Shown: positions 560-37,201 of the stretch, piece by piece | How the letters are laid out: every line of letters starts with the position of its first letter | Numbering within the stretch: position 1 is the first letter of the stretch | Virus record (IMG/VR): IMGVR_UViG_3300034073_002127 | Coordinates: 1-37,929 of that record | DNA: 37,929 bases | Origin: a virus | Strand: one strand, 5' to 3' | The notes under the pieces: model-generated | What the model was told of the DNA's origin: nothing | Seen by the model: only the letters and a program-made list of their open reading frames with translations | The model's database searches: none | Position numbers and translations under genes: made by a program

Positions 560-790
560 AAGATTGTCGGTTCGCTCTAGTATATCTGCGACCTATTTGA
601 GTCTGGGACTGGTAGGTTCGACTCCTACAGAAAATAATAGCACTAAGATATACTAGCGAGAGCCGATAATCAAATCAAAGAGGGTGGGAGATGGGGGATA
701 AACCTATAAAGTTCTAGGGCTTTCCTGGGACGGTAGAGGAATGACACGTGGTAAAAATTCATTCCTACTCCCCACCTCCCACTCTCACAA
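560..790 (+). ncRNA. Structured intergenic RNA candidate, two domains, with a T-arm-like hairpin
   Basis: Domain 1: bases 562-587 can pair with 646-671 (22 of 26 identical to the reverse complement; two of the four differences are G-U pairs if the plus strand is transcribed). Its apical loop holds a perfect T-arm-like hairpin, stem 612-616/624-628 with loop TTCGACT, matching the tRNA T-loop consensus. Domain 2: 679-696 pairs with 770-785 (15 of 16 after a 2-base bulge) and encloses a second stem, 733-742 with 761-768. No tRNA acceptor or anticodon arm can be drawn. No coding frame of note crosses the region. The class is unknown to me and the strand is not firmly settled. Confidence 0.5.
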
Positions 791-5878: not shown

Positions 5879-6253
5879 ATGGCTAAGAAACCAACTATTA
5901 AACAGCAAAGGGCATTGACAAATTTACTAGCAGATGGTGGCTCTAAGGCCTCTGCAATGATTAAAGCTGGTTATTCTCCAAGAACAGCAAGAGATCCAAG
6001 TAAATTATTTGATAGCCCGGTAATGAAACCAGTTATTGATAAACTGGCTCAGCAACTAGAAGATGAACGCCAAGAGGTTTTAGACCGAATGAAAGCTACT
6101 CGTAGCCGAGCAAAATATCGTGACCTAACTTATGCTTTGGATATAGTTACTAAGAATTATCAGCTAGTGACTGGTGGCAGAACAGAGAATGGGGGTATAG
6201 AAGAGTTGGCCACATCTATAAATAATTGGATTAAGAGTTCAAAAAATGACTGA
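5879..6253 (+). CDS. terS: Terminase small subunit-like protein
   Basis: A 124-residue protein directly before the large terminase and overlapping it by eight bases. Residues about 8-45 form a helix-turn-helix-like N-terminal domain with the pattern A-S-A-M-I-K-A-G-Y-S-P-R-T-A common in phage small terminases, followed by a charged helix (about 50-85) that could mediate oligomerisation. It should recognise packaging DNA and recruit the ATPase. Called from position, size and the AGYS HTH pattern. Confidence 0.8.
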   Translation: MAKKPTIKQQRALTNLLADGGSKASAMIKAGYSPRTARDPSKLFDSPVMKPVIDKLAQQLEDERQEVLDRMKATRSRAKYRDLTYALDIVTKNYQLVTGGRTENGGIEELATSINNWIKSSKND

Positions 6254-8612
6254 TGAACAAAGAAACATTTGTCTAAAATTATTAAGCCTATTTGAAATAG
6301 ACGGCAAAAAGGCTAGTGAAGTGGCTACTGATGGCCAGATAGAGATTTTCTTTGAGATAGTATTCCGGGTGCATCCGAGAGTAGAAATTCTAACTGCCAC
6401 TCAGTATGGTAAGAGTTTGTTTGTAGCTTTGGCTAGTATTATTGTGACCTGTATTCAAAAGGAAATGATCTCTGTGGTGGCCCCAACGAATGAAAAGGCG
6501 AAGATTATAATGCGTTACTTCATTGACCACTTAGGGGATAATATCCTATTTTACTCGCAATTAGAAAAAGACTCTAAACTTGACCGCTTGCGGATGGAGG
6601 AAAGCAAAGAGCGAATTAAACTAAAAAATGGCGGTGGTATCTTTGTGGTATCTGTTCAAGCTGGTAATTCTAAAAAGGGTATTGAATCAGCGATGGGTGC
6701 TGGTTCAAAAATAGTCGTGGAAGACGAAGCCGGATTGATTCCTGATAACATTGAGGCTACTGTTTTCCGTATGATTGCCGGTAAAGGAGCCGATGCTTTC
6801 TATTGCAAAATTGGTAATCCCTTTTATCGTAATCATTTTTTACGAAGCTGGCACGATGAAAAATATCATAAAGTTTTTATAGATTATGAACGAGGTTTGA
6901 AAGAAGGCCGTTATACGCAAGAATTTATTGATGAAGCTCGAACTAAACCATTCTTTGATGTGTTGTTTGAGTGTAAGTTTCCAAGTGCTGATGCGATTGA
7001 TACGTCAGGTTATTCTCCATTGATTGTGGAAGAAGTTTTGTTATCTAAAATTCGCAAAGAAGTAGAACTCTTTGGCCGAACATCCTTGTCTTGCGATGTA
7101 GCTGGTGAAGGTAGCAACCAAAGTGTAATTGTTTACCGTGGCCAGAATGGAGCGAAGATTATCTACAAAGAAAACAACCCGGACACAATGAACTTTGCCG
7201 GGGTGATTTTAAAGTTTGCACAAGAATTAAATCCAGATGTAATTTATATTGACAAGGTGGGAATCGGAAAACCAGTGTATGACCGCTTGAAAGAATATCA
7301 AGAGATAGAAACTATTGTCGTGGGTGTAATGGCTGGCGAAAGTGCTGATGATACTGAAAACTTCATAAATAAAAGGGCAGAAATGTTTTGGCGATTAAGG
7401 GAATGGCTGGCTACGGCTGAACTTGAAGGTAACGGTTGGATGGATTTACTCGATGTCCGCTATAAAATTCAGAGTGATAGGAAGGTTAAGATTAAAAGTA
7501 AAGATGAAATGTTGAAGGAGGGAGTGCAAAGCCCGGACTGTTTTGTGGCTGGAACAAATATATTAACTAGAAATGGTGAAGTAAACATAGAAAGTTTATC
7601 TGCTGGTGATAGTGTCATAACCCCTTATGGAGAACGGGAGATACTTAAAAAATGGGAAGTAGAAACTGATAAGCTAATCAAGGTATCTTTCTCTAACGGC
7701 ACAACCTTGACAGGTAAACCAAAACATAAAATACTAACAAAACGAGGCTTTATTCCGCTTGACGCATTACTATTGACTGATATAATAGAAACAAGGAACA
7801 TTTTTTCAAATATATTATGGAAACTAAAAAAGTTATTATTTATAAAGGACGTAAATATTGGCCTACGAAAGCAGGCAGATATTTTTATGCCGACATTTAT
7901 GACGGAAGAGGACAGCGGAAAAAAGAACCACTACATCACAGAGTTTGGCAAGATAATAACAAAGGCAAACAAATTCCTGATGGATATTCTATCCACCACA
8001 TTGATGGAAATACCTTTAACAATAACCCAAAGAATTTACAACTGGTTGAATCAACAAAGCACTCACGCCACCATATGCTGGAACGATTTGATGATAAGGA
8101 CTATAAGAAATCAAATGATAAGCAACTCGAGGCTATCCGTCCGCTTGCCTCTTTATGGCACAAATCCGATGAAGGTAGAAAATGGCACAGAGAACACGCA
8201 AGAAAACAATGGGATAATCCTAAGGTCATCACAGGAAAGTGTATTGAGTGTGGACGAGAATTTGAAGCATACTACAAGACAAAAAAATATTGCAGTAGAA
8301 AATGTGAACAAAAAACAATATGGAAAAATAAAGTGTATAACACTGATAAAAGAATTTGTTTGGTCTGTAAAAAAGAGTTTATGGCAAATCGGCATAGGCC
8401 TACAAGCTGTTGCAGTAGAAAGTGTGGAAGCCATTGGAGGTGGAAAAACAAAAGTATTTAATCTAACTCTTGATAGGGATAATGTTTATTATGCTAATGG
8501 TATTTTAGCGGAAAATTGTGCGGATGCTTTATCCCTAAGTTTTTATAAGCAGACTATCGGCACACCACAGATCAGTCAGTATCGTCCCAAGTGGGCATCA
8601 AAAAGAAAATAG
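6246..8612 (+). CDS. terL: Terminase large subunit interrupted by an intein
   Basis: The 788-codon frame is an extein of 462 residues, normal for TerL, plus a 326-residue intein (432-757). ATPase: Walker A-like TATQYGKS (50-57) and Walker B VVEDEAG (157-163). RNase-H-like nuclease: Asp284 in CDVAGEG, Asp336 in YIDKVG, and the third acidic motif SPD-CADAL. The intein sits exactly between SPD and CADAL and uses Cys758 as the +1 residue. Packaging therefore probably requires splicing to restore the nuclease site. The middle of the intein frame (about residues 520-720) looks like the unintended translation of the HNH gene nested in another frame (7817-8461), yet it contains no stop. Confidence 0.93.
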   Translation: MTDEQRNICLKLLSLFEIDGKKASEVATDGQIEIFFEIVFRVHPRVEILTATQYGKSLFVALASIIVTCIQKEMISVVAPTNEKAKIIMRYFIDHLGDNILFYSQLEKDSKLDRLRMEESKERIKLKNGGGIFVVSVQAGNSKKGIESAMGAGSKIVVEDEAGLIPDNIEATVFRMIAGKGADAFYCKIGNPFYRNHFLRSWHDEKYHKVFIDYERGLKEGRYTQEFIDEARTKPFFDVLFECKFPSADAIDTSGYSPLIVEEVLLSKIRKEVELFGRTSLSCDVAGEGSNQSVIVYRGQNGAKIIYKENNPDTMNFAGVILKFAQELNPDVIYIDKVGIGKPVYDRLKEYQEIETIVVGVMAGESADDTENFINKRAEMFWRLREWLATAELEGNGWMDLLDVRYKIQSDRKVKIKSKDEMLKEGVQSPDCFVAGTNILTRNGEVNIESLSAGDSVITPYGEREILKKWEVETDKLIKVSFSNGTTLTGKPKHKILTKRGFIPLDALLLTDIIETRNIFSNILWKLKKLLFIKDVNIGLRKQADIFMPTFMTEEDSGKKNHYITEFGKIITKANKFLMDILSTTLMEIPLTITQRIYNWLNQQSTHATICWNDLMIRTIRNQMISNSRLSVRLPLYGTNPMKVENGTENTQENNGIILRSSQESVLSVDENLKHTTRQKNIAVENVNKKQYGKIKCITLIKEFVWSVKKSLWQIGIGLQAVAVESVEAIGGGKTKVFNLTLDRDNVYYANGILAENCADALSLSFYKQTIGTPQISQYRPKWASKRK
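7759..7786 (+). promoter_or_regulatory. Promoter inside the intein, driving the nested HNH gene
   Basis: TTGACG (7759-7764), 16 bases, TATAAT (7781-7786). The predicted start (about 7793) lies some 24 bases before the HNH ATG at 7817. The same bases encode the end of intein block B. AT-rich DNA gives chance matches, but a near-consensus pair at this place is suggestive. Confidence 0.5.
7817..8461 (+). CDS. HNH endonuclease with two zinc fingers, nested out of frame in the terL intein
   Basis: A 214-residue complete protein in the frame one base back from terL. HNH domain: IHHIDGN (59-65), then NN-x2-NL (about 69-74) and HSRHH (82-86). The C-terminal part has two Cys4 fingers: C142/C145/C159/C163 and C181/C184/C199/C203. 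Both fingers are intact, so this is a functional-looking gene and not frame noise. The second finger overlaps the bases that encode intein block F, so about 60 bases (8402-8461) are dual coding. No Shine-Dalgarno is seen near the ATG, but a promoter-like pair lies at 7759-7786. Inferred role: homing nuclease cutting intein-less terL alleles. Confidence 0.9.
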   Translation: METKKVIIYKGRKYWPTKAGRYFYADIYDGRGQRKKEPLHHRVWQDNNKGKQIPDGYSIHHIDGNTFNNNPKNLQLVESTKHSRHHMLERFDDKDYKKSNDKQLEAIRPLASLWHKSDEGRKWHREHARKQWDNPKVITGKCIECGREFEAYYKTKKYCSRKCEQKTIWKNKVYNTDKRICLVCKKEFMANRHRPTSCCSRKCGSHWRWKNKSI

Positions 8613-8621
8613 TTTTCCACA
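8613..8621 (+). promoter_or_regulatory. DnaA-box-like site TTTTCCACA
   Basis: TTTTCCACA followed by G, immediately after the terL stop and upstream of the portal gene promoter region (weak TTGTTT/TATATT near 8639-8663). It is one of four such intergenic boxes (26211, 33670, 37056). Confidence 0.4.
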
Positions 8622-26131: not shown

Positions 26132-26203
26132 GGGGGTGGGTGGTGAAGTCATCACGGTTGGCTCATAACCAGCACAAATCGGAGCGTTACCGGTATCCCC
26201 TAC
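26132..26203 (+). tRNA. tRNA-Met-like cloverleaf (CAU anticodon) lacking elbow bases
   Basis: A full cloverleaf can be drawn. Acceptor 26132-26138/26196-26202 has six of seven pairs, failing only at the terminal C-U. The D stem is 26141-26144/26153-26156 with an 8-base loop. The anticodon stem is 26158-26162/26170-26174 with loop CTCATAA. The variable region is four bases, and the T stem is 26179-26183/26191-26195 with a 7-base loop. Four pairs are G-U on this strand and would be C-A on the other, so the RNA is the plus strand. The D loop has no GG and the T loop (AGCGTTA) lacks TTC; base 8 is G. It is either a degenerate tRNA or a tRNA mimic. Confidence 0.55.
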
Positions 26204-29674: not shown

Positions 29675-30043
29675 ATGACAAAAGAAAAAGACTTAAAACG
29701 ACATAGAGAGTGGGCAAAAAATAATCAAGAGTATGCTCAACTTTACCATTTCTATTGGAGACAAAAGAGAAAAAATGGTGAATCTACTAAAAGAAAAATA
29801 ATTCTCTACAAAAATAAACTAGAAAGTTTTTTAAGACGATCTGCTTGGAATAAAATTAAGGATGAGATTAAATTTGGCAGGATGAAAAAATTACCTTGTG
29901 AGATTTGTAAGACAACTAAAAATATAGAAGCTCATCATTATTTGGGTTATGAGAAAGAAAATTGGTTAAAGGTCAAATGGTTATGTATTAAACATCACAG
30001 AGCGGAACATCGTAGTTTTAAAATAAAAAAAACGACCCCATAA
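29675..30043 (+). CDS. Small HNH nuclease-like protein (122 aa)
   Basis: The N-terminal 70 residues are basic and helical (DNA contact likely). The C-terminal HNH/treble-clef region reads C75-x2-C78, then H87-H88 in EAHHYLGY, N96-W97, C104 and H107-H108. This matches small HNH proteins in which Cys pairs hold zinc and the HH carries catalysis. It lies directly upstream of the structured RNA at 30074. Whether it belongs to that cassette, or is an independent homing-type nuclease, is open. Confidence 0.75.
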   Translation: MTKEKDLKRHREWAKNNQEYAQLYHFYWRQKRKNGESTKRKIILYKNKLESFLRRSAWNKIKDEIKFGRMKKLPCEICKTTKNIEAHHYLGYEKENWLKVKWLCIKHHRAEHRSFKIKKTTP

Positions 30044-30073: not shown

Positions 30074-30292
30074 GTTAGTAATTCAATTCAGGGCAGACTA
30101 AACGTCTACAATGAATTAGACTTTGGAGAAATATGATGGCAACATAATTGTAAGGTGATGCTAACGCACCCGAGCAAGAATTAGTTTCTCCGAGAATTAC
30201 ATCGGCTGAAAGTCCGTCAGCGGGTGGCGAGCCACGCTAAGACCTTAAATGGCAACTGTTGTGAAGTGTCTGCTTTGAATTGAATTACTAAC
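30074..30292 (+). ncRNA. Structured RNA closed by a 25-bp stem
   Basis: Bases 30074-30098 pair with 30268-30292 over 25 positions; the only two deviations are G-U on the plus strand. Inside are stem GGAGAAA/TTTCTCC (about 30125-30131/30185-30191) with a GGTG/CACC hairpin, GCTGA/TCAGC and AGCG/CGCT enclosing TGG-CGAG-CCA. Such long-stem, multi-hairpin architecture between HNH-type genes suggests a functional RNA of a mobile element. I do not recognise a group I or II intron core, RNase P, tmRNA or HEARO pattern. Confidence 0.6.
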
Positions 30293-30308
30293 ATATAGGG
30301 GGTCAAAA

Positions 30309-33092: not shown

Positions 33093-33269
33093 ATGAGTCA
33101 AGAATATGTGGGGGCAATAGCATTGGTGATTGTTGGTGTTTTAAAAGCCTTTGGGATTGAAATTGCAAACGATGCCATTGCTGGTATCTTAACCGGTGGA
33201 GTAGCTTTGTATATTGCCTTTAGAAGGTATCAGAAAGGTGACATTAGTTTGGGTGGTGTAAAAAAATAA
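33093..33269 (+). CDS. Two-segment small membrane protein, holin candidate (58 aa)
   Basis: 58 residues with hydrophobic stretches at about 5-21 and 27-43 and a basic C-terminal tail (RRYQKGD ... VKK). Size and topology fit a class II holin. It starts nine bases after the peptidase stop, so the module is XhlA-like, two peptidases, then this protein. Confidence 0.6.
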   Translation: MSQEYVGAIALVIVGVLKAFGIEIANDAIAGILTGGVALYIAFRRYQKGDISLGGVKK

Positions 33270-33278
33270 ATATTATTT

Positions 33279-33595
33279 TGTGGCAGGAAGGCCTGTCTGG
33301 TCTCAAGGTAGCACAATGGGGGTAATCGTCTATCATTTTCAGTAGCCGAGGAATAACCACCGCCTAAGCATAAATAATGGCCTTGAGCGGGGCTTCCTGT
33401 CACAAACTTTGCTCGCTATTCTGACAGCCGATCTAGTAGGTGCTTAATTGCAAGGAACGACCGATACATCGTCTAGTGGCGTGACGGTTCCAATTATACC
33501 GGGAAAAAATTTGGACTATAATTTCGTGCTTCGCCTGATTGCAAAGCATCGAGCGAGAACCCCCTAGCACCTAAAAAGAATAGGGGTTTTTTGCT
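33279..33595 (+). ncRNA. Structured RNA ending in an intrinsic terminator
   Basis: Domain 1 is closed by a 12-bp stem (33279-33290/33393-33404, one G-U on this strand), with CTCAAGG/CCTTGAG (33302-33308/33381-33387) inside. Domain 2: CTCGCT (33412-33417) with AGCGAG (33552-33557), and TAGGTGCT (33437-33444) with AGCACCTA (33566-33573). These last two pairings interleave, so they form a pseudoknot. AGCACCTA sits in the loop of the terminator hairpin (33558-33566/33581-33588, then a T-run). Local hairpins lie at 33454-33491 and 33527-33548. The class is unknown to me. No gene of note is present here. Confidence 0.6.
33558..33592 (+). terminator. Intrinsic terminator at the end of the lysis/RNA region
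   Basis: AACCCCCTA ... TAGGGG followed by a TTTTTT run (33587-33592). The 14-base loop contains the bases that can pair far upstream at 33437-33444. Confidence 0.75.
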
Positions 33596-33669
33596 ACCTC
33601 AATATTTTTTATAGTATTTTTTATGTTGATATTTAAGGGTATTTTAGAAAATAGTCAGATGAAATGGAG

Positions 33670-33678
33670 TTTTCCACA
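33670..33678 (+). promoter_or_regulatory. DnaA-box-like site TTTTCCACA
   Basis: TTTTCCACA followed by G, nine bases upstream of the -35 of the next promoter. Confidence 0.4.
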
Positions 33679-33687
33679 GCCCCACGC

Positions 33688-33715
33688 TTGTTATTATAAT
33701 TTTATAATATATAAT
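33688..33715 (+). promoter_or_regulatory. Promoter of the replication/recombination operon
   Basis: TTGTTA (33688-33693), 16 bases, TATAAT (33710-33715); the expected start is about 33722, leaving a 33-base leader before the ATG at 33755. A second TATAAT lies at 33703-33708. Confidence 0.5.
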
Positions 33716-33754
33716 ATATGAAATGGTCGATATTATTAAATTAAAAACAAGCAA

Positions 33755-33931
33755 ATGATAAAAGAAAATTTAAAGATAGATGCAGATGAAATGAAGGCGG
33801 TATGGATGCCACCGGAAGTTCATTTAGCTTTGAAGAAGACAGCAGACAAGGAAGGCGTAAAAATTCATAATTTAGTAGCAATTTTGATTAACAATTATTT
33901 GATTCATCAAAATGAAAAGAAAATATCCTAA
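33755..33931 (+). CDS. Ribbon-helix-helix regulator-like protein (58 aa)
   Basis: A strand-like segment (KAVWMPPEVHLALKKTA) followed by two helices with EGVKIHNLVAILINNYL matches the Arc/CopG-type ribbon-helix-helix pattern of small dimeric repressors (P-x-x-V-h-x-x-L-K-x-x-A). It is the first gene after the promoter at 33688 and may autoregulate the early operon. The next gene starts inside it. Confidence 0.65.
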   Translation: MIKENLKIDADEMKAVWMPPEVHLALKKTADKEGVKIHNLVAILINNYLIHQNEKKIS

Positions 33932-37111: not shown

Positions 37112-37122
37112 ATATATATATG

Positions 37123-37201
37123 ACCGCGCTAAATTTTTTAAAAATTGAAAACTGTAGGCAAGAGAAAACTGTTAGCGCGGTTACATCTTGTCTGCAGTTT
37201 T
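37123..37201. promoter_or_regulatory. Interleaved inverted repeats before the initiator gene
   Basis: Repeat A: ACCGCGCTAA (37123-37132) and TTAGCGCGGT (37172-37181), 10 bp perfect. Repeat B: 37148-37163 with 37186-37201, 14 of 16. Order A-B-A'-B', so RNA would form a pseudoknot. GAAAACTGT is also directly repeated (37147-37155, 37164-37172). It may be an operator/origin element or an RNA leader control of the initiator gene. Confidence 0.55.

Follow-up and report, generated by a model that had tools for sequence, protein, structure and literature searches.

Does the noncoding stretch behind the lysis genes of this phage form an independent RNA with a pseudoknot at its terminator, or is it the end of a transcript at which alternative folds could decide on termination? 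The window analysed is the whole of IMG/VR record IMGVR_UViG_3300034073_002127 (positions 1 to 37,929; 37,929 bases). It encodes GroEL, a terminase large subunit with a central insertion, a portal-like protein and recombination genes of the RecE/RusA type. Sequence searches with the portal-like and lysis proteins produced no match in the phage collection, and near neighbours are rare. Profile searches identified about 60 related IMG/VR contigs and, in addition, two genome contigs, from a Microgenomatus bin (52% capsid identity) and a Methylococcaceae bin; a Patescibacterial host is plausible. Thirty-two relatives were examined whole or nearly whole, of which 31 were counted, G006 being nearly identical to G003. 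The terminase insertion (ORF 6246-8612, + strand) is long and intein-like in appearance (CFVAGTNILT...VYYANGILAENC), with one PHROG terminase profile matching before it and another across it.

Genomic setting and domain 1

The locus lies between the following features.

33093-33269, + strand: last gene of the lysis cassette, a holin-like membrane protein of 58 aa (from its translation)
33277-33406, + strand: stem-closed domain 1, a 14-pair closing stem with an inner CTCAAGGT/GCCTTGAG stem (from folding and shuffles)
33670-33715, + strand: early promoter, a TTTTCCACA box at 33670 and TTGTTA-16-TATAAT at 33688-33715 (from sequence)
33755-33931, + strand: first ORF of the early operon, 58 aa, without a Pfam match (from sequence)

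The interval from the stop codon of the holin-like gene to the first early gene (33270-33754) contains no credible ORF, the frames of at least 20 aa being short and unconvincing, and leader-peptide attenuation was rejected on this ground. The holin-like protein itself has no match in Pfam or PHROGs. There is no turn in GC skew at the RNA region and hence no signal of a replication origin.

The stop codon ends 7 nt upstream of the first stem of the RNA. This closing stem, TTTGTGGCAGGAAG/CTTCCTGTCACAAA (33277-33290/33393-33406), consists of 14 pairs including one G-U and was equalled in none of 200 shuffles; the first-pass annotation had recognized it, although with a length of 12 bp. The 130 nt domain that it closes folds at -48.4 kcal/mol (z -3.7), again with no equally stable sequence among 200 shuffles, and is a real and solid structured RNA domain. 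The annotation had proposed a two-domain RNA, and here only the first half holds: domain 2 (33410-33557) is no better than shuffled sequence (z -0.10; 86 of 200 shuffles equally stable). The whole region folded without pseudoknots gives z -1.6 (five of 100 shuffles).

The relative G019 carries the same type of holin, followed within 10 nt of its stop codon by a long-stemmed hairpin of its own, with z -5.9 for this post-holin hairpin compared with z -4.3 in the studied record. The lysis transcript may thus retain a stem-closed structure at its 3' end by position rather than by sequence, on the strength of two cases only. Elsewhere in G019, about 900 bases at the genome ends (L093 1940-2384 and L091 1-480) are apparently noncoding and contain several long closing stems, and positions 42239-42315 hold an 11-bp/24-bp H-type pseudoknot.

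Terminator and competing helices

The downstream part of the RNA contains a terminator and three upstream strands that can pair with it or with its immediate flank.

33412-33417, + strand: CTCGCT, 5' arm of a proposed anti-antiterminator, pairing with AGCGAG at 33552-33557 (from sequence)
33416-33422, + strand: CTATTCT, 5' arm of the second antiterminator helix, pairing with AGAATAG at 33577-33583 (in the MFE folds at 33586 and 33592)
33437-33444, + strand: TAGGTGCT, 5' arm of the first antiterminator helix, pairing with AGCACCTA at 33566-33573 (from sequence and folding)
33558-33592, + strand: intrinsic terminator, AACCCCCTA..TAGGGGTTTTTT (from sequence)

The intrinsic terminator is present as annotated, with a stem at 33558-33566/33581-33590, a 14-nt loop and a T6 run at 33587-33592; the segment 33552-33592 folds alone at -10.3 kcal/mol. 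The two interleaved helices described with it, CTCGCT/AGCGAG and TAGGTGCT/AGCACCTA, are likewise both found in the sequence. AGCGAG would meet a 6-base partner with P 0.08. Region-wide, the single 8-base complementary pair is close to the 0.65 expected by chance, but the terminator loop in particular would find an 8-base upstream partner with P 0.03. The nested alternative GGTGCTT/AAGCATC for TAGGTGCT was rejected as unfavourable in the full context (-30.1 versus -48.1 kcal/mol).

The CTATTCT/AGAATAG helix was overlooked in the earlier annotation and unites with TAGGTGCT/AGCACCTA as a single antiterminator. AGAATAG overlaps the 3' arm of the terminator, so that the antiterminator uses up both the terminator loop and its 3' arm, and both the overlap and the folding results indicate that the antiterminator and terminator helices are mutually exclusive. 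CTATTCT and CTCGCT share two nucleotides; formation of CTCGCT/AGCGAG therefore clashes with the antiterminator and favours the terminator. Of the terminator-loop pseudoknot proposed for this site, the upstream pairing of the loop stands, but the extended helix competes with the terminator instead of coexisting with it. Since the extension excludes the terminator, two alternative folds explain the interleaved helices at least equally well, and with moderate confidence we assign the helices to rival states of a switch and not to a single pseudoknot.

The exchange of helices was followed by folding transcripts with growing 3' ends. Up to 33565 the MFE structure includes CTCGCT/AGCGAG; by 33575 TAGGTGCT/AGCACCTA has taken its place; and by 33586 CTATTCT/AGAATAG is added, capturing the TAG that opens the 3' arm of the terminator. 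At 33592 the antiterminator state (A) has an MFE of -48.1 and an ensemble energy of -50.35 kcal/mol, compared with -46.3 and -50.80 kcal/mol for the terminator state (T), so that the ensemble energies differ by only about 0.5 kcal/mol.

The joint antiterminator pairing amounts to -20.3 kcal/mol, against a mean of -10.6 (sd 2.2) in shuffled sequence. Among 6000 shuffles each, four equalled it when the local upstream RNA (33407-33551) was shuffled and 23 when the whole upstream RNA was; shuffling the terminator segment gave one in 3000. These frequencies are optimistic because the helix was spotted by looking before testing. Only one of 340 terminator-like hairpins in the studied, related and control phages gave z below -4. 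Over the whole ensemble, the probability of the terminator is 0.45 and 0.54, compared with shuffled medians of 0.84 and 0.63; values as low occur in 6% and 8% of shuffles, which makes the native RNA only modestly unusual.

Sequence and folding together predict both these helices and their incompatibility, and the order in which CTCGCT/AGCGAG, the antiterminator and the terminator overlap is the one that an anti-antiterminator/antiterminator/terminator set needs. In the reading that we tentatively prefer, while giving it less than an even chance, 33277-33592 would be the noncoding, structured region in which the late (lysis-operon) transcript ends, with domain 1 directly behind the holin-like stop codon and then a terminator that can be opposed by RNA upstream of it. 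With CTCGCT paired to AGCGAG (state T), the terminator hairpin would form and transcription would halt ahead of the early promoter. With CTATTCT and TAGGTGCT paired to AGAATAG and AGCACCTA (state A), the loop and 3' arm of the terminator would be taken up and polymerase could read through. We infer that such switching could occur in the cell and likewise that it would have a trigger, for which domain 1 as a sensor, a bound protein or a bound RNA are candidates. The attenuator that the annotation had offered as one option gains from the overlap of the antiterminator with the terminator and from the near-equal energies of the two states, but its support is moderate, given the 6-8% of shuffles that oppose the terminator equally.

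These same shuffles fit a simpler explanation, in which the locus is a plain structured 3' UTR: the domain would protect or process the lysis mRNA at its 3' end, the terminator would insulate the early promoter and the complementarity of the loop would be due to chance. The position of the RNA, right behind the last lysis gene and ahead of a strong early promoter, agrees well with this explanation, as does the near-chance number of 8-base complementary pairs; against it, an upstream partner for both the loop and the 3' arm is rarely equalled when the local upstream RNA is shuffled. A plain 3' UTR is accordingly a quite possible reading, while also falling short of probable. The strong early promoter at 33688-33715 sits about 95 nt 3' of the terminator and ahead of the first early gene, so the early genes are independent of read-through; under the preferred switch reading, the RNA may still govern whether transcription enters the early operon, but early expression does not require this.

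Homologue searches and comparison with known RNAs

A scan of the whole record against Rfam gave no match at the gathering score and none at E values up to 1, and the RNA region alone gave chance-level matches only; some relatives were also searched, with negative results. Known Rfam families (riboswitches, T-boxes, group I introns and ornate RNAs) were ruled out in that no curated covariance model matched, and a tRNA or tmRNA was rejected as ARAGORN calls none. Searches for homologues of the RNA by blastn (50,697 phage records), by blastn and nhmmer (related phage records) and by two exact-pattern scans of IMG/VR were all negative, and a single-sequence covariance model recovered none of domain 1. 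A DNA match in L069/L070 (E 0.004) was discarded because it lies inside a coding gene. As no homologue was found, the helices have no support from covariation, which limits confidence in them but, by the annotation's own criterion, does not amount to a refutation. An antisense target within the studied record was also rejected (the best match of 12 nt is about that expected by chance), as was pairing of the RNA with the leader at 37121, which is weaker than with shuffled RNA.

The lack of a match among the related phage records also weighs on the proposal that the locus yields a separate, stable noncoding RNA of about 316 nt, transcribed from a promoter of its own and folded in two domains. 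The compact stem-closed domain does begin right after a TATTAT (33271-33276) and the RNA ends in its own terminator, but at the 5' end both an acceptable -35 and a TTNTCCAC box are missing, in contrast to the other inferred promoters of this phage, and the z value of domain 2 is -0.10. Such an RNA is unlikely.

As a putative switch, the RNA seems to be of an ordinary kind, albeit unstudied. The leader attenuator of Bacillus subtilis rplJL consists of an anti-antiterminator, an antiterminator and a terminator (PMC4538822), and the phage RNA resembles it in that its three helices overlap in the same logical succession, closing with an intrinsic terminator. It differs from the rplJL leader in its position at a late operon's 3' end rather than in a leader, in having no known binding protein, leader peptide or kinship, and in that the phage switch is predicted. 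The put RNA of HK022, of about 70 nt with two stem-loops, lies downstream of early promoters and acts on the polymerase so that later terminators are read through (PMC9378689). Both are phage RNAs for which an effect on termination near early genes is proposed; however, the effect here would be on one adjacent terminator, the sizes differ and the RNA lies upstream, not downstream, of the early promoter at 33688-33715. With GOLLD, ROOL and OLE, large ornate RNAs of bacteria and phages (PMC12286853), it shares the character of a structured noncoding RNA of unassigned function, some of those also being found in phages, but it is much smaller and without an Rfam match.

Other structured regions are present in the window. 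Positions 562-672 (+ strand) are noncoding with a long closing stem (12 pairs and about 11 more; z -7.1) that encloses GTAGGTTCGACTCCTAC, resembling a tRNA T-arm, and are followed by a second long stem at about 680-783. Directly 3' of an HNH-like ORF (29675-30043), positions 30074-30293 (+ strand) form a 25-bp stem around a branched structure (z -5.1) with no Rfam match. A degenerate tRNA-like stretch at 26132-26202 (+ strand) contains an anticodon-like arm, GTTGG-CTCATAA-CCAGC (CAT); it is not called by ARAGORN and its fold is insignificant (z -1.4).

Pseudoknot leaders in the phage group

A separate element in the window precedes the gene for replication protein O (Phage_rep_O; Pfam E value 2.8e-22).

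37121-37199, + strand: 5'-terminal H-type pseudoknot leader, TGACCGCGCTAA/TTAGCGCGGTTA and AACTGTAGGCAAGA/TCTTGTCTGCAGTT (from folding, z -6.2)

The studied and related phages were scanned for terminator-like hairpins with a loop that pairs to sequence immediately upstream. With helices of at least S1 26 / S2 28, four cases were observed, compared with none in 15 shuffles and none in reversed sequence; at loose cut-offs, seven pseudoknotted terminators were observed and five in reversed sequence. The idea that the group is rich in pseudoknotted terminators is weakened by this reversed control and supported at the strict cut-offs only, and the link to termination is weak because the reversed control is not much lower at looser cut-offs.

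A different definition started from promoters (a TTNTCCAC box and a -10), with the 5' strand of the pseudoknot starting within 40 nt of the -10 and no T-run needed. Strong H-type pseudoknots follow seven of the 68 box-carrying promoters, against an expectation of 0.08 (shuffled) or 0.15 (random windows). The relatives that bear such leaders are G001, G022, G033, G034, G036 and G040; the leader precedes the gene for a Lin1244-like protein in G001, a helix-turn-helix protein with a weak RepL match in G022, a primase-polymerase in G036 and GroEL in G040. Since several are without a T-run, the leaders are not simply terminators. These promoter-tied leaders are better supported than either the finding at 33277-33592 or the version tied to T-runs.

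The RNA at 33279-33595 falls outside this class, in which the 5' strand lies close to the second stem: here 113 nt separate that strand from the hairpin downstream, and no promoter is nearby. A true pseudoknotted terminator, in which TAGGTGCT/AGCACCTA forms alongside the terminator hairpin, is the least likely reading of the locus and highly improbable: its helix and the terminator stem have a single base (A33566) in common and strong H-type pseudoknots do occur elsewhere in the group, but in these the 5' strand lies within about 25 nt of the hairpin and mostly near the transcript start, and the extra helix reaches into the 3' arm of the terminator, favouring exclusion. That one RNA architecture (5' strand, hairpin arm, loop strand, hairpin arm) controls several operons of this phage group, as compact leaders at transcript starts and, at 33279-33595, as a stretched late-operon terminator switch, is also very doubtful.

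The sequence TT(A/T)TCCACA, which we take to be the DnaA-box consensus or one base off, occurs at 8613, 26210, 33670 and 37056 (+ strand), each time before a -10, and the pattern recurs in relatives; such boxes could mark DnaA-linked promoters. A literature search found no description of recurrent pseudoknot leaders at DnaA-box-like promoters.

If the switch at the end of the lysis operon is real, RNA folding would let these phages decide whether late transcription continues into the early genes. The pseudoknot leaders at DnaA-box-like promoters, often placed before replication genes, matter more than the switch.
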